From: Actinorugispora endophytica
GTDB lineage: Bacteria; Actinomycetota; Actinomycetes; Streptosporangiales; Streptosporangiaceae
DNA length: 64,000 nucleotides
Direction: 5' to 3'
Assembly (NCBI RefSeq): GCF_004363075.1
Contig: NZ_SNYN01000025.1
Location: 1 to 64,000 of the forward strand
Position numbers and translations under genes: made by a program. This document shows positions 30,664 to 42,614 of the stretch, in pieces (positions within the stretch are counted from its first letter, which is position 1; every line of letters starts with the position of its first letter). The notes beneath the pieces are model-generated. The model was given only the letters and a program-made list of their open reading frames with translations. It was not told the DNA's origin and searched no databases.

Positions 30664-31629
30664 TCACACCAGTGCGGGCTCCACCAGGCTGTCAGCGGGG
30701 GGACGCTCACTGATGGCCGTCTCGCGCGGGTACGGCACGTACGCGCCGTCGGCGGTGTCGCCGCGCGCGTACTGCACGAGCGTGGTGGCGGCCGGGTCCC
30801 CTTCGACCAGCCGCCCCGACCGCACCAGGCGGGTGCGGGCGGTGTGCTGGATCTGCGCGGCCATCACCCCCAGGTCCGGCGTGGACTGGTTGGTGTGCTC
30901 GCGCACCCCCAGGTCCACCTGGGCGAGCGCGTCCAGGCCCTCGGCCTCCAGCAGGTCCACCAGCAGCCCCAGCTCCACCCCGTAGTGGGACACGAAGGGC
31001 ATCCGGCGCAGCACGTCGGCGCGGCCCGCGTACTCCCCCGACAACGGCTGGACGAACCCCGCCAGGCTCGGCCAGTACTGGTTGAGCAGGGGGCGCGCCA
31101 CCAGTTCGGTGACGCGCCCCCCGTTGAAGGCCTCCCCGGGGGACCCCTTCAGCGGCCGGTCGTAGCAGGCCTTGACGTAGGCCACGCCCGGGTCGGTGAC
31201 CAGCGGGCCCAGCAGGCCCGTCACGTAGTCGGGGGTGAAGCTCAGCAGGTCCGCGTCGACGAACACCAGGATGTCGCCGGTGGCCACGAACAGCGACTTC
31301 CACAGCGCCTCGCCCTTGCCCTCCCCGCCCGCCAGGTCGGGCCGGACGGCGTCCTGGTGGTAGACGGTGGCGCCCGCCTCCGCCGCGACGCGGGCGGTGC
31401 CGTCGGTACTGCGCGAGTCGATGACCACGATCTCGTCCACCAGCGGCACGTCCTCGCACAGCGCGGTTCGGATGCTGGTGACGATCCGGCCCACGGTCGC
31501 GCTCTCGTCACGGGCCGGCAGGACCACGGTGACCCGCTGGTCCCGTTTGTCCCCGGCGAGGACGCCGGCGTCCCAGTCCCGCGCACGGCTGGTGCGCCGG
31601 TCGAGCCATGCCTCTACCTCTGGCAGCAC
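30664..31629 (-). CDS. gpgS: Glucosyl-3-phosphoglycerate synthase, second copy (GT81)
   Basis: The 321-residue paralogue of the protein at 26790-27779 keeps the same motifs: VVLPARDESATVG, VVIDSRSTDGT, ILVFVDADL, GKGEALWKSLF and GGRVTELVARPLLNQ. GTG 31629 is preceded by GGGAGG at ideal spacing, whereas the GTG at 31671 is not. No gpgP phosphatase or GT4 partner is next to it. Two copies within 5 kb suggest separate regulation or different acceptors. Confidence 0.88.
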   Translation of the reverse strand: MLPEVEAWLDRRTSRARDWDAGVLAGDKRDQRVTVVLPARDESATVGRIVTSIRTALCEDVPLVDEIVVIDSRSTDGTARVAAEAGATVYHQDAVRPDLAGGEGKGEALWKSLFVATGDILVFVDADLLSFTPDYVTGLLGPLVTDPGVAYVKACYDRPLKGSPGEAFNGGRVTELVARPLLNQYWPSLAGFVQPLSGEYAGRADVLRRMPFVSHYGVELGLLVDLLEAEGLDALAQVDLGVREHTNQSTPDLGVMAAQIQHTARTRLVRSGRLVEGDPAATTLVQYARGDTADGAYVPYPRETAISERPPADSLVEPALV

Positions 31630-31918
31630 GGTGCCTCCCTGAATCGGCTCTGGCGTGTCCCGGCGCGGCACCGGTCGGTGAACCGCGCCAGGCGATTCGT
31701 TATAGCCCGCGAATTTTTCCGGCGTGTCGCCGGCGTGTGGCCAACGTGTGACGCCGTTTCGCGTCCGCCCCTCGCCGCGGTCCTTACGTCCGGGTTCACC
31801 CCTGACACACCACCTTGGTCCGCTCCCTGGCCTGGGCGCGCCTCCACGGGCTCAATGAGACCAGTGACGTGGTCAGGCCATGACCTTCCGCACACCGTTC
31901 CTTGCCGATGGGGGATCC

Positions 31919-32927: not shown

Positions 32928-34217
32928 TCAGGCCGGCGCCATCGCTGTCGTCCGGCGCTTGTCGTCGCGGGCGGGGCCGGAGGACGAGAGGACGCACGGC
33001 GCGCCCAGTTCGGCGGCGACCGCCTCGCACCAGGCGCCGGGGTCCACGGCCTCGACGCGGGGCCGCACCTCCTCGAGCCGCCGGGTGAGCCGCTCCTGGG
33101 CCGCGAGGTCGCCCACGACCGCGCCCGGAAGCTCCGCGCACCGCCCCTGGTCGGTGTCGTAGGCGCGGCACATCCCCAGGCGCGCCCGGTGGGGGGCGTC
33201 GGTGTGGGTCACCGCCACCGCGTCCACCCCGCCGGTCGCGGCCACCGCGTAGCGGTGCAGGACCGCGTCGAAGTGCCCGGTGCGGAACGCCCCCTGCCAA
33301 CGCCCGGTCGTGTTGTGCGCCTCGCCCAGCGCGGCCAGCAGCGCGGGGTCCTCCGTGGGCAGCGGGCCGGGCCCGTGCCGGGGGGTGTAGGTGCGCACCA
33401 CCCCCAGCGTCGCCCCGTCGGCGCCGGCCCCGGCCAGCAGGGCGCGCGCGTTGGCCGCGGTGGTGGTGGACCAGGTGGTATACGGGTGCAGGCCGTGCCA
33501 CTCGTCCAGGAGGACCCCCTGGGCGCCCTCGAACACGACCGGCCCGGCCCCGAGCAGGTGCCGCAGGCGCGCGGCGCCGTCCACGATCCGGACCCGCTCG
33601 GCGAACGCCCCGAACACCGCCGCGCAGTCGGCGACCGGAGGCGCCTCCAGCGGACCGAGTTCGGCCTCCAGGGCCTCGCGCAGCCTCCCCAGCAGCCGCC
33701 GCAGCCGCACCGGGTCGGCGCAGTCGGCCGCCCTCGGCGCCCACCCGGGGTTCGCCAGCGCGTACGCCGCGGTCTCGCCGACGCCCATCCCGCACGAGCC
33801 GTGCCGCCCCGCGCCGCGCGCGCTCTCGCGCGCCCGGTTGGCCGCCTGGTGGTAGGGGGTGGTCACCAGCGCGTCGGCGTCCACGGTGAGCCGGTCCAGC
33901 GCGTCCGGCACCCCGATGGCGGCCAGGTGGTCGGCCTCGGCCGCCAGCGCCAGCGGGTCCACCAGCATGAACCGGGACAGGTGGGTGGCCACGCCGGGGG
34001 TGAGGGTGCCCGAGGAGAACTGCGCGAAGGTGTGGTGGCGCCCGTCGGGGGCCACCACGTTGTGGGCGGCCTGGGCGCCGCCGTTGAACCGCACCACCGC
34101 GCGGTGGCCGCCGAGCGCGCACAGCCAGTCCACGACCGTGCCCTTGCCCGCGTCGCCGAACCCCAGGTCCACCACGATGGTGTGGCCGTCCAGCTCCGCA
34201 CCGGCGCGGGGCGCCAT
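32928..34217 (-). CDS. Adenylosuccinate synthetase-like protein (PurA paralogue)
   Basis: PurA joins aspartate to IMP using GTP. This 429-residue homologue keeps the catalytic Asp (FGDAGKGTVVDW for WGDEGKGK), the catalytic His (GGAQAAHNVV for GGHNAGHT), the FEGAQGVLLDEWHG/HPYTT core and the final SSGPAR. The IMP-loop TTGRGIGPAY is replaced by SCGMGVGETAAY, and TKLD, the GTP base-specificity motif, by THTD. It is therefore unlikely to be the housekeeping enzyme and may use other nucleotides or acceptors. It is the last gene of an operon with vWA, J-kinase and NUDIX-regulator genes; its ATG overlaps the vWA stop (TGATG). Confidence 0.88.
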   Translation of the reverse strand: MAPRAGAELDGHTIVVDLGFGDAGKGTVVDWLCALGGHRAVVRFNGGAQAAHNVVAPDGRHHTFAQFSSGTLTPGVATHLSRFMLVDPLALAAEADHLAAIGVPDALDRLTVDADALVTTPYHQAANRARESARGAGRHGSCGMGVGETAAYALANPGWAPRAADCADPVRLRRLLGRLREALEAELGPLEAPPVADCAAVFGAFAERVRIVDGAARLRHLLGAGPVVFEGAQGVLLDEWHGLHPYTTWSTTTAANARALLAGAGADGATLGVVRTYTPRHGPGPLPTEDPALLAALGEAHNTTGRWQGAFRTGHFDAVLHRYAVAATGGVDAVAVTHTDAPHRARLGMCRAYDTDQGRCAELPGAVVGDLAAQERLTRRLEEVRPRVEAVDPGAWCEAVAAELGAPCVLSSSGPARDDKRRTTAMAPA

Positions 34218-35218
34218 CACAGCCGCCGGGTGCGCCCGGCGGCGCCGTCGGCGTCCAGGTCGGCCGGGGCCTCGGAGGCCCTGACGGGGGTGCGCGAGCG
34301 CGCCACGGGCTCCAGCGCGGCCGAGACCGCGCGCACCGCCTCGTCCTCCGTACCGTTCTCGCCCAGGTCCGCCAGGCCCTCGGCCAGGTCGATGGCCTCC
34401 TCGGCCAGGCCGACGGTGACCGCGATGGTCTCGGCGACCGCGTCCAGGTCGTCGAGCATGATGACGTTCTGTCCGAACAGCGACCGCCAGAACTTCTCCA
34501 CCTTGCCGTCGGCGGCGTGGTACGCGCCCGCCGGGACGATGTGGAACACCTCGAACTTGGCCTTGAGCTCGGCCACGATCTGCGGCAGCGGGATGTCCTC
34601 GTCCAGGTCGTCCCCGATCACCTCGCGCACCTCGCGCGCCTTGACCTTGCCGTACGCCAGCTCGTCGCCCATCAGGAACAGGTACCCGCGCCTGCCGCGC
34701 TTCTCCAGGCAGTCCATCGCGGTGTGCCGCGCCATGAAGTACATGGCCAGCTCGTAGGACTCGGTCAGCTGGCCGCCGCCCCCGCCCTCCAGCAGGATGT
34801 TGCCGAGCTGCTCGTCCATGCGGTTGTCCGACTCGAACTGCCCCACCTGAAGAGGGACCCGGTCGCAGGTGGCGTCCCCGATCCCGCCGAACATGATCTG
34901 CGGGTGCTGCACGTACCCCTTGCGCAGCAGCAGGCCGAACAGCTCGGGGAGCTTCGTCTGCATGGTCCGCGGGATGGACCCCATCGACCCGGTCACGTCG
35001 AACAGCACCGCGATGGCGGTGGAGGCGGGGTGCTCGTCGGAGTCCCGGCTCTCCCGCACCCCCGCGTTTCCGGGGTCCAGGCTCGGGTGGGCCGTCCAGG
35101 TGCTGGGCGGCGCCGACGCCGCCACGTGGTCGGTGTAGGCGAAGGCGCTCGTGCCGGTGCTCGCCCGGTACGAGTTCGCGGCGTTGTAGACGTCGGTGGA
35201 CCAGTGTCCGCTTCCCAT
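34217..35218 (-). CDS. vWA-domain protein
   Basis: The 333-residue cytosolic protein has a von Willebrand A fold with the metal-site motif LFDVTGSMGS near 73, followed by GGIGDATCDRVPLQVGQFES and ELAMYFMARH. There is no signal peptide. vWA proteins in bacterial conflict and stress operons act as scaffolds for kinases or AAA ATPases. The gene lies between the J-domain pseudokinase and the PurA-like gene, with AGAGGA before its ATG. The role in the complex is inference from context. Confidence 0.88.
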   Translation of the reverse strand: MGSGHWSTDVYNAANSYRASTGTSAFAYTDHVAASAPPSTWTAHPSLDPGNAGVRESRDSDEHPASTAIAVLFDVTGSMGSIPRTMQTKLPELFGLLLRKGYVQHPQIMFGGIGDATCDRVPLQVGQFESDNRMDEQLGNILLEGGGGGQLTESYELAMYFMARHTAMDCLEKRGRRGYLFLMGDELAYGKVKAREVREVIGDDLDEDIPLPQIVAELKAKFEVFHIVPAGAYHAADGKVEKFWRSLFGQNVIMLDDLDAVAETIAVTVGLAEEAIDLAEGLADLGENGTEDEAVRAVSAALEPVARSRTPVRASEAPADLDADGAAGRTRRL

Positions 35219-35268
35219 GGTGTTTCCTCTCGTAATTCCCTGTCGCCCGCGCTGTCGGGGCGGGGTGG

Positions 35269-36333
35269 TCAGTAGGCGGGGTCGGTGGGCATCGTGAACG
35301 GCCGGAAGGAACGCGGGCCCCACAGGCGCTCCAGGAGGCCGTCGAACTCGCCCAGCAGCGCCCACGCGTCCTTGGGGCGCATGGAGGGCGCCTCCAGCGC
35401 GCAGCCGCGGGCGAACGCCGCCATCGGCGCGGGCATGCGCGGTCCGATGAGCCGCGCCATCGTGCGGGTGGCCATGTGGATGTCGGTGGCCGGGGTCGCG
35501 GCCCCGCCCTGGGGGATCTCGGGCGCGTAGTCGTCCTCGTACGCCTCGACCACGGCGCGCACGCGCTGCCCCTCGGGTACCGCGTAGCACCAGTCGGCCA
35601 GCACCAGCCCGTGCTTGCCGGGGTGGACGAGCACGTTGGCCGCCACGACCGCGCCGTGCACCAGCCCGGCGGCGTGCGCGTTGCCGACCGCCACCAGCAG
35701 GCGTCGCCACATCCACGCCGCGTCCCTGGGGTCCAGTCCGCCCGGGTGCGCCGCGGCCACGTCGGCCAGGGTGTGGAAGCCGCGCAGCGGCTCCAGGACC
35801 GTGACGTCGCGCACCGCCCCGGTGGCGGCGTCGCGGTGCCGCGCCGCCTCGACGAGGCGGGGCGCGTACGCGGCCAGGTCCGGGCGGCCGTGTTCGGCGA
35901 GCACGGCCAGCGACTCGGCCTCGGCGGCCATCAGGTCGTTGTCGGCCACCGAGCGCGGCATCTTGACCACGGCGTCGTGGTCGCGGCCATCCTCGTGCCA
36001 GACGGCGCGGTACACGTTCGCGATGTCCCCGCGGGCGATGAGCGCGCCCACCCGGTAGACGCGCCGCCGCGTGGTGACGGTGACGCCGCCGGTCTCGGCC
36101 TCGGTGCGCCGGTGCGCGCTCCAGTGCGCGGCCAGGCGGCTGTAGGCGGCCAGCGCCCGCGCCCGCTCGTCCTCGCGCGCCCGGTCCGGGTGCAGCACGC
36201 GCGCCAGGCTCCGCCAGGTGCGCGCCGCCTCGTCGGTGGGAGCGGCCCCGCCCTCGGGCGCGGGGCCGAACAGCTCGGCCGGACCGCTCGCGGCCAGGAC
36301 CCGGTGCTCGGCGCGGTCGAAGTCGGCGCTCAC
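35269..36333 (-). CDS. J-domain/protein-kinase-fold protein, probable pseudokinase
   Basis: The 354-residue protein has an N-terminal J-like segment with HPD (SLARVLHPDRAREDERA, about 44-60) and a kinase fold (about 85-345). The ATP lysine is likely in DAVVKMPRS. The catalytic loop, normally HRDxKxxN, reads HGAVVAAN, so the catalytic Asp and Lys are lost, and DFG reads DWC. Phosphotransfer is therefore doubtful, and a regulatory or substrate-binding role is more likely. The GTG start overlaps the NUDIX stop, and GAGGAG lies 7 bases upstream. Confidence 0.85.
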   Translation of the reverse strand: MSADFDRAEHRVLAASGPAELFGPAPEGGAAPTDEAARTWRSLARVLHPDRAREDERARALAAYSRLAAHWSAHRRTEAETGGVTVTTRRRVYRVGALIARGDIANVYRAVWHEDGRDHDAVVKMPRSVADNDLMAAEAESLAVLAEHGRPDLAAYAPRLVEAARHRDAATGAVRDVTVLEPLRGFHTLADVAAAHPGGLDPRDAAWMWRRLLVAVGNAHAAGLVHGAVVAANVLVHPGKHGLVLADWCYAVPEGQRVRAVVEAYEDDYAPEIPQGGAATPATDIHMATRTMARLIGPRMPAPMAAFARGCALEAPSMRPKDAWALLGEFDGLLERLWGPRSFRPFTMPTDPAY

Positions 36334-37097
36334 CGCCCGCTCCTCGGTTCGGGCGCGGCGGGGCGCAGCAGCGCCGGGTGCAGCGCGGTCGCCGGACCCG
36401 CGCTGTACAGGCGGGCCCGCCGCCCGCCGCGCGCGCCTCCGCTTTCGGTGAGCCGTCCGGTGTCGGTGACCAGGCCCGGCACCGAAAGGACCTTGCGGTG
36501 GAAGTTCGCCGCGTGCAGGGGGCGGCCCCACACCGTCTCGTACACCCCGCGCAGGTCCGCGACGGTGAACTCCGCGGGCAGGAACGCTGTGGCCAGGGAC
36601 GTGTACTCGAGTTTGGAGCGGGCCCGCTCCAGCGCGTCGGCCGTGATCCGCGCGTGGTCGAACGCCAGCGCCTCCCCCTGCTCCACCTCGGCCACGGTCC
36701 GCCACGCGGCCTCCGCGGCGTCGCCGCCCCCGCGTGGTTCGGGCAGGTCCGGGGCCATCACCATGTGGGCGACGGACACCACCCGCATGCGGGGGTCGCG
36801 CTCCGGGGCGCCGTAGGCGGCGAGCTGCTCCAGGTGCGGGGTGGGCGGCAGGTCGGTCTCCTCGGCGAGTTCGCGCAGGGCCGCCCCCGCCAGGTCCTCG
36901 TCCTCGCGCACGAAGCCGCCGGGCAGCGCCCACTCCCCCTCGAACGGCGGCTCCGCGCGCCGCACGCACAGGACGCACAGTTCGCCGCCCCGGATGGTGA
37001 GGGCGACCACGTCCACGGTGACGGCCACCGGCGCGAACGCGCGCGGGTCGTAGGCCGCCAGGAACTCCGCCTCCCGCCGCTCCCGTTCGGTCTCCAC
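36330..37097 (-). CDS. NrtR-like NUDIX regulator (NUDIX plus winged helix)
   Basis: The 255-residue protein has an N-terminal NUDIX fold (about 20-150) and a C-terminal winged helix (about 155-225, with FTVADLRGVYETVWGRPLHAANFHRKV). The NUDIX box GFVREDEDLAGAALRELAEE is nearly intact, with Asp for the last Gly. NrtR proteins bind ADP-ribose-type ligands and repress NAD-related operons. It is the first gene of a four-gene operon, starting at GTG 37097 after GGAGG, and a 31-bp dyad lies directly upstream, so autoregulation is likely. Confidence 0.88.
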   Translation of the reverse strand: METERERREAEFLAAYDPRAFAPVAVTVDVVALTIRGGELCVLCVRRAEPPFEGEWALPGGFVREDEDLAGAALRELAEETDLPPTPHLEQLAAYGAPERDPRMRVVSVAHMVMAPDLPEPRGGGDAAEAAWRTVAEVEQGEALAFDHARITADALERARSKLEYTSLATAFLPAEFTVADLRGVYETVWGRPLHAANFHRKVLSVPGLVTDTGRLTESGGARGGRRARLYSAGPATALHPALLRPAAPEPRSGR

Positions 37098-37112
37098 CGC
37101 AGCCTCCAGTAA

Positions 37113-37143
37113 TTCTCAAAACGAGATTTTCTCGCCTTGAGAA
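37113..37143. promoter_or_regulatory. Nested dyad operator of the NUDIX operon
   Basis: A 31-bp interrupted palindrome centred at 37128: outer arms TTCTCAA/TTGAGAA (37113-37119, 37137-37143) and inner arms GAGA/TCTC (37123-37126, 37130-37133) share one axis. It can also be read as two TCTC-N5-GAGA sites separated by TTT. It sits between the presumed promoter and the ribosome site of the NrtR-like gene. Confidence 0.8.
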
Positions 37144-37357
37144 GAACATAGGGGACGGAGGCCCCTCCTGTCCACCCTCCCCGCCCCACCCCTTCCGAGA
37201 GTGGTCGCAGCACCACCGACCGCGCCCCGCCCCATCGGACACAATAGGGAACCGGGAACGCGTGTCCGACGGACCGCTCCGGGCCCGCGGACCCGATCCG
37301 GAAGTCGTCCGCCCACCGCTCCCCCGCCGCCCGTCCACAGAAGAGGAACCCGCCACC

Positions 37358-38632
37358 ATGGTCGTCCAGGACTACCGCGCCAAGCGCCTCAGGCTCCTGA
37401 GCTGGTGCCTGGCCCTGGCCACCACCGCCGTCCTCGGCCTCCTCCTGCTCCCCCTGTTCCTGCTCGCGGGCGTCCTCAGCCTGCTGTGGATCGGCCTGCC
37501 CCTCCTGGCCGGCGTCACCCACCTCACCCGCCGGTTCGCCGACTACCACCGCCGCGTCCTCGGCCAGTGGCTGCCCTCCCCCGTCCCCGCCCCCTACCGC
37601 CCCCTGCCCAGGGGCGTCATCCCCGCCGTCGGCACCATCCTCAGGGACCCCGCGACCTGGCGCGACCTGGCCTGGCTCGTCCTCAACCCCCTCCTCGGCC
37701 TCGTCCTGCTCCTCCTGCCCGTCGTCCTGTTCGTCCTCGGCGTCAACAGCCTCCTGGTCCCCCTCTACTGGCCCCTGATGCCTCCCGACACCCTCGTCGT
37801 GTTCGGCGCCGTCCCCGTCAGCAGCCAGGCCGGCTCCTACTTCACCCTCCTGCAGGCCCCCGTCGCGTTCCTGGCGTTCTGGCTCGCGACCCCGCCCCTC
37901 ATGCGCGTCTACGCCCACCTCAACCGGTTCCTGCTCGCCCCCAACGCCGCCGCCCGCCTCACCGCCCGCGTCGCCCACCTGTCCGCCTCGCGCGACGACG
38001 CCGTCGACACCCAGGCCTCCGAGGTCCGCCGGATCGAACGCGACCTCCACGACGGCGCCCAGGCCCGCCTCGTCGCCCTGGGGATGAGCCTGGGCATGGC
38101 CGAGCAGATGCTCGCCACCGACCCCGCCGCCGCGCAGAGGCTGCTCACCGAGGCCCGCGAGAGCACCCGCCAGGCCCTCACCGAACTCCGCGACCTCGTC
38201 CGCGGCATCCACCCGCCCGTGCTCGTCGAACGCGGCCTCGACGGCGCCGTGCGCGCGCTGGCCGTCACCCAGCAGCTCCCCATCTCCGTGGACATCGACC
38301 TGGCCGGCCGTCCCGAGGACCCCGTCGAGTCCGCCGTCTACTTCGCCGTCGCCGAACTCCTGACCAACACCGCCAAGCACGCCCACGCCACCCGCGCCTG
38401 GGTCCGCATCAACTACGGGCTCGGCCGCATGGTCATCGTCGTGGGCGACGACGGGAACGGCGGCGCCGACACCGCCAACGGGTCCGGCCTCACCGGGGTC
38501 CGGCGCCGGCTCGGCGCGTTCGATGGCACGATGATGATCGCCAGCCCCCCAGGGGGTCCGACCATCATCACCATGGAGCTACCGTGCGCGTTGTCATCGC
38601 CGAAGACCTCGCCCTCCTCCGCGACGGGCTGA
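37358..38632 (+). CDS. Sensor histidine kinase (NarL-type two-component system)
   Basis: The 424-residue membrane kinase has about four N-terminal transmembrane segments within residues 1-185, with short loops. A HisKA_3 dimerisation helix follows, with the phospho-acceptor in RRIERDLHDGAQARLVALG (near 230), then a HATPase domain (ELLTNTAKHAHA near 335, GDDGNGGADTANGSGLTGVRRR near 365). ATG 37358 has GAGGA about 10 bases upstream. The response-regulator gene begins 49 bases before this stop in another frame, so expression is coupled. The signal is unknown; the membrane region suggests envelope sensing. Confidence 0.92.
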   Translation: MVVQDYRAKRLRLLSWCLALATTAVLGLLLLPLFLLAGVLSLLWIGLPLLAGVTHLTRRFADYHRRVLGQWLPSPVPAPYRPLPRGVIPAVGTILRDPATWRDLAWLVLNPLLGLVLLLLPVVLFVLGVNSLLVPLYWPLMPPDTLVVFGAVPVSSQAGSYFTLLQAPVAFLAFWLATPPLMRVYAHLNRFLLAPNAAARLTARVAHLSASRDDAVDTQASEVRRIERDLHDGAQARLVALGMSLGMAEQMLATDPAAAQRLLTEARESTRQALTELRDLVRGIHPPVLVERGLDGAVRALAVTQQLPISVDIDLAGRPEDPVESAVYFAVAELLTNTAKHAHATRAWVRINYGLGRMVIVVGDDGNGGADTANGSGLTGVRRRLGAFDGTMMIASPPGGPTIITMELPCALSSPKTSPSSATG

Positions 38633-39228
38633 TCCGGCTCCTCAACGCCCATGACTTCCAGGTCGTCGCCGCTGTCGACACCGGTCCCGACCTGCTCGAC
38701 GCCCTTCTGGAGCACCGTCCCGACGTCGCCGTCGTCGACGTGCGCCTGCCCCCCACCCAGACCGACGAAGGCCTCAAGGCCGCCATCACCGCCCGTGAGC
38801 GCGTCCCCGGGCTGCCCGTCCTCGTGCTCTCCCAGCACGTCGAGCAGCTGTACGCCCGCGAACTCCTCTCCGGCGGCCAGGGCGGCGTCGGCTACCTCCT
38901 CAAGGACCGCGTCTTCGACATCGGCCAGTTCATCGAGGCCGTCCGCCGCGTCGCCGCCGGCGGCACCGCCATGGACCCGGAGGTCATCTCCCAGCTCCTC
39001 GCCAAGCACACCCTCGAGAGCCCCCTGGGCGCCCTCACCGCCCGCGAACGCGAGGTCCTGGGCGAAATGGCCGAGGGCCGCTCCAACTCCGCCATCGCGG
39101 GCCGGCTCTTCATCACCGAGAAGGCCGTCAGCAAGCACATCAACAACATCTTCGCCAAGCTCGGCCTCCCGCCCTCCTCCGACGACAGCCGCCGCGTCCT
39201 CGCCGTCCTGGCCTACCTCAACGGCTGA
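38584..39228 (+). CDS. LuxR/NarL-family response regulator
   Basis: The 214-residue protein has a receiver domain (about 1-120; acidic VIAEDLALLRDG, phospho-acceptor Asp in VAVVDVRLPP near 51, and KDR near 105) and a C-terminal LuxR HTH (about 145-205, LTAREREVLGEMAEG and ITEKAVSKHINNIFAKLG). It is the cognate partner of the overlapping kinase. GTG 38584 has GGAG about 6 bases upstream. Target genes are not evident nearby. Confidence 0.93.
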   Translation: MRVVIAEDLALLRDGLIRLLNAHDFQVVAAVDTGPDLLDALLEHRPDVAVVDVRLPPTQTDEGLKAAITARERVPGLPVLVLSQHVEQLYARELLSGGQGGVGYLLKDRVFDIGQFIEAVRRVAAGGTAMDPEVISQLLAKHTLESPLGALTAREREVLGEMAEGRSNSAIAGRLFITEKAVSKHINNIFAKLGLPPSSDDSRRVLAVLAYLNG

Positions 39229-40535: not shown

Positions 40536-42494
40536 CTAGCGGCGCTCTCCGGTCGGGGGAACCGCGTAGAGCGACTCGATCTCCTCGGCGAACGCCCGCA
40601 GCACCGCGTCCCTCCGCAGCCGGCCCGACGGCAGGAGCAGCCCGCTGGAGGGGCTGAACTCCTCCGGCAGCACGTGGAACGCCCGGATCATCGACTCCGG
40701 CGACACGCTGCTGTTGACCTCCTCCACCGCGCGGCGGATCTCCGCCCCCATCTCGGGCGCGAACGCGATCTGCTCCAGCGGCGTCGACAGCGGATGCCCG
40801 TTCACCAGCCGCCAGTACTCCAACTGGTCCCGCTTCAACGTGATCAGCGCCGTCGCGTACGGCCGGTTCTCCGACAGCACGATCACCTGGCTGATCAGCG
40901 GATGCGACAGCAGCCGCGTCTCCAACGCCACGAAGTCGGGCAGCACCCCCTCGCCCCCGGAGTCCACCACCGCGCCCGTGACCACGGCCCCCGCCGCGGC
41001 GGGCACGTCCGCGGCGGCGGACGCCGCGGCCACGACGGCGGCGGACGTGGGCGCGACGGGCAGCTCCGGAGACGGCTCCGCCGACCGCGCGGCGGCCGCC
41101 GGACGCGCCCGCCGCGGCCCCCGCACGACCAGGCGCCCCTCCCCGTCCACCTCTCCCAGCCACCCCGTGGCCAGCCACCCGTCCCGCAGCGCCCGGTCGG
41201 TGTCGCGCGCGGCGTTGTGGTAGCCCGCGAACACGCACACGCCGCGCACCATCACCTCACCCGAATCGGACACCCTCAGTTCCACCCCGTCCAACGCCGG
41301 TCCCACCGTGCCCGGCCGGTGCGCCCCCGGCACGTTCAGCGTCACGAACCCGCCCGTCTGCACCAGGCCGAACCCCTCCAGCACCGGCACGCCCGCACCC
41401 CCGTAGAAGTGCGTCAACCGCGGTTCCAACCCGCCCTGCGGGCACACCACCACCCGCACCCCGCCGCCCAGCGCGTCCTTGACCCGGGTGTAGGCCCACT
41501 CGTACAGGGCGCGCGACACCCGCTGCCACGCTCCCCGCCGGCCCTTCTTGTCGATCTCCACCGCCAGCTGCGTCGCGGCCTTGAACGCCTGGACCCCGTC
41601 CCAGCCGCCCTCCTTGGAGCGGGTCCTCTCCAGTTCGTACGTGCGGGTCAGGAACGGCGCGTCGGCCACCAGCAGCGTCGGCGAGAACTCCCGCACCTGA
41701 TGCGCGAAGTCCGCGTCCTCACGCGCGAAGCCCACCCGCACGCCCCCCAGCATGCACGCCACGAGCACGCCGTAGCCCGCGACCCCGTCGGCCCCGGGGC
41801 CCAGCAGTGTCACCGCCCGCCCCTCGCCCATGTCCGCCAGCACCGGCTCCAGCCGCCCCACCAGGGCCCGCCCCGACACCAGCAGGTTCCGGTGCGTCAG
41901 CACCGCCCCCCGCACCCGCCGCTGCGGCGTCGCCGTGTAGCAGATCACCGCCGCGTCGTCGGGCCTGCACTCCTCCACCCGGAACCGCACCGCCGACGCG
42001 TCCATGTACGCCCCCGGCTTGGCGATCCCCTCCAGCCCGGCCTCGTCCAGCTGCCAGGTGCGCCCCAGGTCCACCAGCTCGTGCTGCAGCGACGCCACCA
42101 CCCGGGCGTGCTCCCGGCTGCGCACCACCGCCGCCGCCGGGCGGCTGTCCCGCAGCACCCGGCGCAGCAGCCCCGGCGAGCACCCCGGCGGCACCCACAC
42201 CACCACCCCGCCCGCCGCCCACACCCCGAAGGTCACCAGCGTCTGCTCGTACCCCGCGGCGGCGGCGACCAGCACCCGGTCCCCGCGGCCGACCCCCGCC
42301 GCGATCAACCCCCTGGCCAGCCGCGTCACCGCGGACAGGAACTCCGTGGCACCCACGTCCCGCCACCCGTCCCCCGCCACCGGCCGGTGGAAGGCCGTCC
42401 TCTCACCGTCCGCCGACCGGGAACTCGAATAGACCAACTCGCCCAGAACACCCGGGCTCGGCAACGGCGAAACGGGGGACCGTGACTGGCGCAT
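40536..42494 (-). CDS. Acyl-CoA synthetase homologue with lost catalytic motifs
   Basis: This 652-residue member of the AMP-dependent ligase superfamily resembles long-chain fatty-acyl-CoA ligases in length and order (REHARVVASLQHELVDLG, EGFGLVQTGGFVTLN, SRALYEWAYTRV). The ATP-binding loop YTSGTTGxPKG reads YTATPQRRVRG, the E of YGxTE is Q, TGDLG is TGWLG, and the C-terminal catalytic Lys (TGK/KLRR) is Arg in LLPSGRLRRDAV. Acyl activation is therefore unlikely; it may be a regulatory pseudoenzyme. An Ala-rich insertion of about 60 residues precedes the C-terminal domain. It is probably in one transcription unit with the upstream spo0M. The ATG at 42494 was chosen for alignment. Confidence 0.85.
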   Translation of the reverse strand: MRQSRSPVSPLPSPGVLGELVYSSSRSADGERTAFHRPVAGDGWRDVGATEFLSAVTRLARGLIAAGVGRGDRVLVAAAAGYEQTLVTFGVWAAGGVVVWVPPGCSPGLLRRVLRDSRPAAAVVRSREHARVVASLQHELVDLGRTWQLDEAGLEGIAKPGAYMDASAVRFRVEECRPDDAAVICYTATPQRRVRGAVLTHRNLLVSGRALVGRLEPVLADMGEGRAVTLLGPGADGVAGYGVLVACMLGGVRVGFAREDADFAHQVREFSPTLLVADAPFLTRTYELERTRSKEGGWDGVQAFKAATQLAVEIDKKGRRGAWQRVSRALYEWAYTRVKDALGGGVRVVVCPQGGLEPRLTHFYGGAGVPVLEGFGLVQTGGFVTLNVPGAHRPGTVGPALDGVELRVSDSGEVMVRGVCVFAGYHNAARDTDRALRDGWLATGWLGEVDGEGRLVVRGPRRARPAAAARSAEPSPELPVAPTSAAVVAAASAAADVPAAAGAVVTGAVVDSGGEGVLPDFVALETRLLSHPLISQVIVLSENRPYATALITLKRDQLEYWRLVNGHPLSTPLEQIAFAPEMGAEIRRAVEEVNSSVSPESMIRAFHVLPEEFSPSSGLLLPSGRLRRDAVLRAFAEEIESLYAVPPTGERR

Positions 42495-42614
42495 GCCCTC
42501 AACACTCCTCACAGGAAAGCCGGGGGGCACCGCTAGCGGCCGCCCCCCGGTCACGTGAATGAGCCCTACTGTGCACGCAACCGTCACCTTTGGGCAAGCC
42601 GCCAGCATGGCCGA

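Follow-up and report, generated by a model that had tools for sequence, protein, structure and literature searches.

What does a paralogue of adenylosuccinate synthetase (PurA) do in the company of a Nudix-type regulator, a J-domain pseudokinase and a vWA protein? The question is raised by a four-gene operon of the actinobacterium Actinorugispora endophytica (NCBI RefSeq assembly GCF_004363075.1), located in the first 64,000 nucleotides, hereafter the window, of contig NZ_SNYN01000025.1 (C25). A preliminary description of the locus, made from the sequence alone, had envisaged a ligand-controlled system that makes or attaches an unusual nucleotide, and had known of no described system with just this composition. 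Our analyses establish the operon as a conserved, co-transcribed-looking and self-contained module, the PurA-like protein of which appears from its residues to be neither PurA nor PurZ, the 2-amino-adenylosuccinate synthetase of phages. The module is of a new kind, although its building blocks are known folds. The facts concerning linkage, operator and active-site residues are far firmer than the chemistry that we propose at the end.

Linkage of the genes in bacteria and phages

The bacterial counts are based on the best 80 loci among 200 relatives that a search of genomes with the vWA protein yielded. All four genes are found together in 75 of these 80 loci; of the remaining five, four are cut at contig ends and one (L073) is without the gene for the J-domain pseudokinase (the J/kinase gene). 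When gene order is counted strictly, it is retained in 73 of 85 loci, or in 72 of 80 within the genome-contig loci. The eight failures comprise three loci (L019, L025 and L036) that do have all four genes by tblastn, four that end at contig edges (L018, L049, L051 and L084) and, again, L073. The full order occurs in at least one locus for 16 of the 17 genus names, the exception being Hamadaea with its one locus lacking the J/kinase gene, and the operator discussed below stands in front of the operon in all 17 genera. The persistence of the four-gene set across genera, which the preliminary description had proposed to check, is thereby borne out.

Nor are the genes scattered in relatives, an outcome that had been named beforehand as speaking against the idea of a system. 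In a family sample of 200 genomes, the vWA gene is present in 68, the PurA paralogue in 66 and both in 65, and in all of these 65 the two are adjacent (within 700 bases). No score fell between 419 and 196 bits, and this gap was used to tell the paralogue from the housekeeping copy; G469 (238 and 186 bits, in two pieces) was taken as a carrier. Among the exceptions, G296 and G344 have the vWA gene only and are fragmented assemblies, and G461, with the PurA paralogue only, is an assembly 67% complete. Locus L117, from G345, has the operator followed by Nudix and vWA genes, has neither the paralogue nor the J/kinase gene in 15 kb, and is the sole clear bacterial loss of the enzyme within the family sample. 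Phylum-wide, two of 296 sampled genomes proved positive, the window's own genome included, a figure that may be low, as the scan used one query and no more than seven candidates were scored in any genome. Six of eight family loci picked by hand, mostly for low identity, represent a three-gene variant, Nudix–vWA–PurA, in which the stretch lacks a J/kinase gene (L115, L116, L118 and L120–L122). The existence of this variant goes beyond the preliminary description, as does the wide spread of a regulator-free core in phages.

Matches to the vWA protein occur also in 21 plasmid records. All seven plasmid loci inspected contain the J/kinase gene, PurA lies beside vWA in six (not in Rhodovulum), and the Nudix gene, likewise present in six, is placed last in Rhodococcus and Tsukamurella and is divergent in Agrobacterium, Acetobacter (fragmented) and Rhodovulum. 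Clustering of flanking open reading frames (ORFs; at least 100 amino acids, 35% identity) from 35 loci (33 of the 80, L119 and the window) gave no family shared by at least five of 20 genus groups that would qualify as a further operon member, TerD and macro-domain genes not having been searched by name.

The J-pseudokinase, vWA and PurA-like proteins form a core that is phage-borne, normally without the repressor. By tblastn, 207 phage records have the vWA gene (189 from Mycobacterium phages, 10 from Rhizobium phages, six from Vibrio phages and two others), and the PurA paralogue gives the same counts for Mycobacterium, Rhizobium and Vibrio; the carriers include Bxz1-type mycobacteriophages, and phage LRRHood has, in this order, the genes for the kinase and vWA proteins, a small gene and PurA. 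IMG/VR yielded 290 stretches that encode relatives of the vWA protein, and the best 80 of them contain the PurA paralogue in 77 cases, a detectable J/kinase gene in 56, both in 53 and any Nudix match in five. As for the loci without PurA, L202 breaks off with its vWA gene, L191 ends where the near-identical L193 begins PurA, and L170 runs on for another 3.3 kb without it. No other neighbour recurs in more than six of the 80 viral loci (datZ and mazZ were not searched by name), and a few of the neighbourhoods hold nucleotide enzymes, e.g. a deoxynucleotide monophosphate kinase. Three viral loci (L135, L145 and L146) combine the core with an NrtR-like Nudix protein near a gene of one shared family, the one scanned member of which (in L146) is by Pfam a nicotinamide/nicotinate phosphoribosyltransferase (NAMPT/NAPRTase type); this neighbour is a hint of a link to nicotinamide adenine dinucleotide (NAD) in some phages.

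The core proteins of the window and of LRRHood fall in the PHROG families 1211 (the PurA paralogue, labelled ‘2-aminooxy adenylosuccinate synthetase’), 2971 (the vWA protein, labelled unknown) and 3043 (labelled kinase), which are listed as separate families, the phage proteins otherwise bearing generic annotations. In phage RefSeq records such as NC_023737.1 and in PHROG 1211, the first of these names is given both to the paralogue family and to proteins of Arthrobacter, Microbacterium and Vibrio phages outside it, whose aligned rows have Ser at the position of Asp13, as opposed to the Asp kept in the paralogue family. The vWA protein of Mycobacterium phage LolaVinca (L095:5001-6779) has an intein-like insert of ~250 amino acids (residues 188–440) directly before a conserved F-IGDE motif, with a Hint match (0.0015) under the Pfam cut-off. 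Its LRRHood counterpart (L085) is 99% identical on both flanks of the insert and lacks it, and in other Mycobacterium phages the vWA match comes in two pieces with a span about equal to that of LolaVinca. A phylogenetic tree sets the actinobacterial rows among viral rows, with support values along the path that range from 0.0 to 0.91 and are for the most part under 0.75, the paralogue clade itself being supported at 0.73; because these values are low, we make no claim of a phage origin for the bacterial copies.

Active-site residues of the PurA paralogue

The PurA-like protein of the window matches PF00709 (2.7e-62), and the NCBIfam adenylosuccinate synthase models score it far under their cut-offs (best 161.7 versus 402). 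It is not the only purA of the genome, a possibility that the preliminary description had allowed for, since a second, housekeeping purA is located at C5:54896-56176. Residues were compared in an alignment of 30 housekeeping PurA sequences, four PurZ-type sequences and 160 paralogues (84 bacterial/plasmid and 76 viral); the resulting table omits L025, L036, L065 and L066 (split or over-extended frames), L049 (no PurA on the contig) and four viral rows below 330 amino acids, and did not use L086, L093, L095–L114, L116 and L119–L121.

Every one of the 160 paralogues retains the residues that we take to be catalytic, Asp13, His41 and Gln224, together with Lys16, and 159 retain Asp333, presumably the determinant of the GTP-type base motif. 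These residues, Thr239, the base motif and the fold itself are what the paralogue shares with PurA. It differs at four positions of the pocket for inosine monophosphate (IMP) that are invariant in the 30 PurA sequences: Asn38 has become Gln in 157 of the 160 paralogues (Asn in three), Thr129 has become Cys in 134 (Val in 21, Thr in five), Val273 is His throughout, and Arg143 is kept in a single paralogue, the last comparison depending on the alignment through a variable region. Lys331 is changed to His or Cys in 155. The aspartate loop TTGRxRR, found in 28 of the 30 PurA sequences, occurs in none of the paralogues, which have N-x4-W/F/Y-Q-G or close variants in its place. TTGR is present just before WQG in one of 84 bacterial rows, the window copy, and in one of 69 matched viral rows, and is so rare that it is not a feature of the family. 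Also unlike PurA, the paralogue is nearly always found beside a vWA gene, separate from the housekeeping copy.

According to the accessible text of PMC8342488, R303 of Escherichia coli PurA contacts aspartate and the O2' of IMP, the equivalent loop tip in PurZ contacts aspartate, Arg146 from the partner chain forms a pair with the alpha-phosphate, and the base pocket for dGMP is lined by the residues that our motif matching equates with N38, T129, Q224 and V273. PurZ (with PurZ0) is likewise a phage-borne PurA paralogue, but it has Ser at D13 and keeps both N38 and a Thr-tipped aspartate loop; as far as the available parts of PMC8342488 and PMC12884076 go, it travels with datZ/mazZ or dutZ/dmtZ, whereas the paralogue described here travels with a vWA protein and a J-pseudokinase. 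Judged by this pattern of residues, the enzyme probably still activates a 6-oxo group at the expense of GTP, with the sites for acceptor and nucleophile rebuilt, and an active site so remodelled would fit the earlier idea that the system makes or attaches an unusual nucleotide.

Partner proteins, operator and surroundings

The AlphaFold model of the J/kinase protein, made with alignments of relatives, has a predicted local distance difference test score (pLDDT) of 94.3 and matches PknB best (Z 25.8, 229 residues, root-mean-square deviation (rmsd) 1.9 Å), and that of the vWA protein (pLDDT 92.4) matches the integrin beta-I domain (Z 15.8, 188 residues, rmsd 2.7 Å), both being matches among the structures listed. 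For the window copies, Pfam calls the kinase domain weakly and the J and vWA domains not at all; a DnaJ call was obtained for 23 of the 47 relatives of the J/kinase protein, and the Pfam vWA model matches none of 51 vWA relatives. The HPD motif of the J domain is nonetheless well kept, both in the bacterial/plasmid rows (H in 83, P in 84 and D in 83 of 85) and in the viral ones (H in 49, P in 47 and D in 48 of 55), these rows excluding L001, L003, L018, L025, L058 and viral ORFs shorter than 270 amino acids or beginning at base 1. In the same table, the catalytic Asp of the HRD motif is lost in all 85 bacterial/plasmid rows when phage row L085 is included (0 of 84 such rows retain it) and in 53 of 55 viral rows, 138 of 140 in total, and the DFG Asp is absent in 12 bacterial/plasmid and 31 viral rows. 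An active protein kinase was rejected on account of the missing HRD Asp, and the designation J-domain pseudokinase, given in the preliminary description, holds. The pairing of a pseudokinase with a J domain that looks functional suggests that the protein recruits DnaK. In the Variovorax plasmid locus L087 (6762-7964), the J/kinase homologue opens with a Cys-rich, zinc-ribbon-like stretch in the position of the J domain.

The earlier assignment of the third gene is supported, besides the modelled I-domain fold, by its metal-ion-dependent adhesion site (MIDAS), of which D74 and G77 are invariant and T76 and S78 conserved to at least 90% in 51 vWA sequences. A match of one vWA member to a TonB receptor is probably spurious, originating from a Rhodovulum gene so annotated. 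Since the vWA gene nearly always stays beside that of the PurA-like enzyme, also in loci that lack the J-pseudokinase, we infer that the vWA protein holds the enzyme or its substrate.

Upstream of the operon, the consensus TAnGTTnTTCTCAn4GAGAn4CTCAn4GAGAA fits 77 of 78 regions with at most four mismatches in its 19 fixed bases, and none of 1560 mononucleotide shuffles. The conserved positions of the –10-like element at its start are T in 71, A in 74, G in 77, T in 77 and T in 73 of the 78 regions. Within the 80 loci (1.5 Mb, operon strand), all 92 matches with at most three mismatches lie within 300 bases of a Nudix start, and the three-gene variants bear the operator, too, with one to four mismatches. 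At the same threshold of three mismatches, the 5.25-Mb genome of the window's source has one operator-like site, the nested dyad that the preliminary description had placed at the head of the operon (table 1).

The regulator of the window passes the Pfam cut-offs for both NUDIX (1.3e-19, 71 bits) and NrtR_WHD (46.1 bits, cut-off 27), in agreement with its initial description as NrtR-like. It shares with the NrtR regulators of NAD metabolism this domain architecture and an operator-like dyad upstream, and differs in having a single operator site in the genome with no NAD gene under it; the preliminary description had likewise seen no NAD biosynthesis gene. A genome-wide NAD regulon was rejected because the operator occurs once, in front of its own operon (other binding motifs were outside the scan), and the dyad looks like a putative repressor element serving one operon. 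The Nudix box is intact in the window, and 29 of the 93 rows match its strict form; many others differ by insertions only, RVLxEKT replaces RELxEE in 11 of the rows listed (10 of Nocardiopsis and one of Streptomonospora, counted by eye), and four rows (L086, L088, L093 and L094) fit neither pattern. A conserved Nudix hydrolase is thus unlikely, and degradation of the box in several relatives makes sensing, rather than hydrolysis, the likely conserved role.

Table 1. Parts of the operon in the window, listed in the direction of transcription.
Feature	Position	Strand	Basis or remark
TATGTT, –10-like element (consensus TAnGTT)	37145..37150	–	Abuts the operator on its upstream side; putative promoter role
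Nested-dyad operator, core of TTCTCAn4GAGAn4CTCAn4GAGAA	37114..37142	–	Upstream-region alignment and genome scan
GGAGG, ribosome-binding site of the first gene	37103..37107	–	Direct sequence reading
Nudix + NrtR-type winged helix, putative autoregulatory repressor, 255 amino acids (P0004)	36330..37097	–	Pfam
J domain + protein-kinase-fold pseudokinase, 354 amino acids (P0003)	35269..36333	–	AlphaFold model, HPD, loss of HRD Asp
vWA/I-domain protein, MIDAS DVTGS, 333 amino acids (P0002)	34217..35218	–	AlphaFold model, MIDAS conservation
PurA-fold ligase paralogue, 429 amino acids (P0001)	32928..34217	–	Pfam PF00709 and active-site changes

The four genes, transcribed in the order Nudix–winged helix, J/kinase, vWA and PurA paralogue, join as previously described, with a four-base GTGA overlap (36330-36333), a 50-base gap (35219-35268) and a TGATG junction (34215-34219). 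Nine flanking ORFs were scanned, four of them without a Pfam match; the named ones encode a glycosyltransferase, a sensor histidine kinase/LuxR regulator pair, an AMP-binding enzyme and a Spo0M protein. The glycosyltransferase (family 2; 30664-31671, minus strand) and the AMP-binding enzyme (40536-42608, minus strand) lie one on each side of the operon, and the sensor kinase/LuxR pair (37262-39228, plus strand) is divergent from it. A defence island was rejected, as the named flanking genes are not defence genes, and PADLOC returned only weak kinase and Nudix matches in the window. ADP-ribosylglycohydrolase (ARG; PF03747), suggested earlier as a possible member of longer versions of the operon, is absent from C25 in a scan of the source genome, the two copies of which lie on contigs C6 and C10.

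Possible chemistry and purpose of the module

What, then, may the module do? Our preferred but tentative reading, to which we give somewhat less than an even chance, is a repressor-gated, chaperone-assisted, GTP-dependent ligase of the PurA fold that forms an N6-modified purine compound not yet described. The Nudix–winged-helix protein would bind the nested dyad beside the –10 element and repress its own operon only, until released by a nucleotide ligand, probably one resembling ADP-ribose. Using GTP and Mg2+, the PurA-fold enzyme would phosphorylate the 6-oxo group of a purine, and a nucleophile would displace the phosphate, as in PurA; the acceptor would not be IMP in its usual binding mode, the nucleophile is probably not free aspartate, and the product may be an N6-modified purine nucleotide or conjugate outside those known. 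The vWA protein, as the constant partner, probably uses its metal site to hold either the enzyme or a substrate protein, and the J-pseudokinase, without phosphorylating anything, would bring DnaK to the complex. In large phages the core, from which the repressor is normally missing, may serve as a tool that the phage delivers to act on this chemistry of the host. A more specific version, possible but on the whole doubtful, has the ligase put a non-aspartate group on the purine 6-position of a carrier other than IMP, giving a new metabolite or modification that hosts induce by nucleotide sensing and phages bring ready-made. The carrier might then be a dinucleotide of hypoxanthine or guanine, a signal nucleotide, or a conjugate of a nucleic acid or protein.

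Several observations weigh against the preferred reading. Thr239 is kept in 157 of 160 paralogues and one Arg of the loop is kept as well, so the nucleotide pocket survives in part. PurZ still uses aspartate although its R303 equivalent is displaced (accessible text of PMC8342488), so loss of R303 proves nothing by itself, and the TTGR of the window copy may possibly mark an inserted WQG turn with aspartate binding intact; the alignment dependence of the Arg143 count belongs here as well. The J/kinase gene is dispensable, given the three-gene operons, and is not detectable in 24 of the 80 viral loci, and the G345 locus combines Nudix and vWA genes in the absence of the PurA paralogue. Regarding control, the operator (at most five mismatches, one strand) was not found in plasmid loci L086–L088 and L091–L094 or in the Nudix-bearing viral loci L135, L145 and L146, which leaves the chromosomal actinobacterial operons as those with a demonstrated site. 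ADP-ribose is a candidate ligand by family resemblance, and the window protein falls short of the cut-off of the NCBIfam ADPR-repressor model (125 versus 400 bits).

An ordinary second adenylosuccinate synthetase, providing extra AMP under stress, would account for the fold and Pfam family, the retained D13, H41, Q224 and D333 and the TTGR of the window copy. It seems very improbable in a genome with a housekeeping purA elsewhere, given the family-wide differences at N38, T129, R143, V273 and the aspartate loop, the low NCBIfam scores and a near-constant vWA partner that an isozyme does not need. Hardly better is the prospect of a PurA-fold protein that has lost catalysis and serves, together with the vWA protein, as a scaffold, e.g. 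in protein assembly: several substrate residues are indeed lost and the partners resemble co-chaperones, but the persistence of D13, K16, H41 and Q224 in every paralogue, and of D333 in all but one, over a large divergence is unlike the evolution of dead enzymes. A PurZ-like route to a modified DNA base, i.e. a phage genome modification borrowed by bacteria, is improbable, if less so. PurZ also is a phage paralogue of PurA, the core resides in large phages, and a few of its neighbourhoods do contain nucleotide enzymes; however, all four PurZ rows of our alignment have Ser where the 160 paralogues have Asp13 (the same Ser occurs in all 147 phage PurZ according to the available part of PMC12884076), they keep N38 and show a TTVT loop, none of the neighbour families of the viral core extends beyond six of the 80 loci, and the bacterial operons are without a DNA enzyme.

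A role in conflict, with a bacterial defence or ADP-ribosylation repair system and a phage counterpart in which the enzyme destroys, caps or rebuilds a nucleotide signal or a depleted nucleotide, is rather unlikely; being a purpose, it can coexist with the ligase reading. The patchy spread (68 of 200 family genomes and two of the 296 in the phylum sample), the carriage by plasmids and phages, the NrtR-type regulator and the NAMPT/NAPRTase-type family (one scanned member) beside the core in three viral loci are all in its favour, as is the logic of the ARG-centred operons of PMC9503650 (section 3.8, in the part available), in which a one-component Nudix repressor (or a WYL repressor) and a vWA chaperone stand beside an enzyme, in actinobacteria and proteobacteria. 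Yet the operon has no nuclease, NADase, pore or other effector, no evident defence island surrounds it, the PADLOC matches are weak, and its contig has no ARG. Compared with the ARG-centred operons as presented in that part of PMC9503650, it has a PurA-like enzyme in place of ARG and a core that occurs also in phages. As the two nearest known kinds, PurZ modules and ARG-centred Nudix operons, each failed a defining test as a home for the module, it is called new. In keeping with the initial claim of novelty, a literature search of titles, beginnings of abstracts and text passages, covering few subscription papers and no figures or supplements, found no published description of the combination of PurA, vWA and J-pseudokinase.

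PurA paralogues have provided a surprise before, in the form of PurZ and 2-aminoadenine genomes. The module described here adds another branch of PurA paralogues, with about 200 phage records and 290 IMG/VR stretches as judged by the vWA partner, a family annotated as adenylosuccinate synthetase though the pocket that defines this activity is rebuilt. Identification of the product would account for a set of genes retained by large phages amid otherwise unrelated neighbours, and it would also give a ligand-gated operon with a directly searchable inducer. Even without new chemistry, some two hundred phage gene annotations need correcting.

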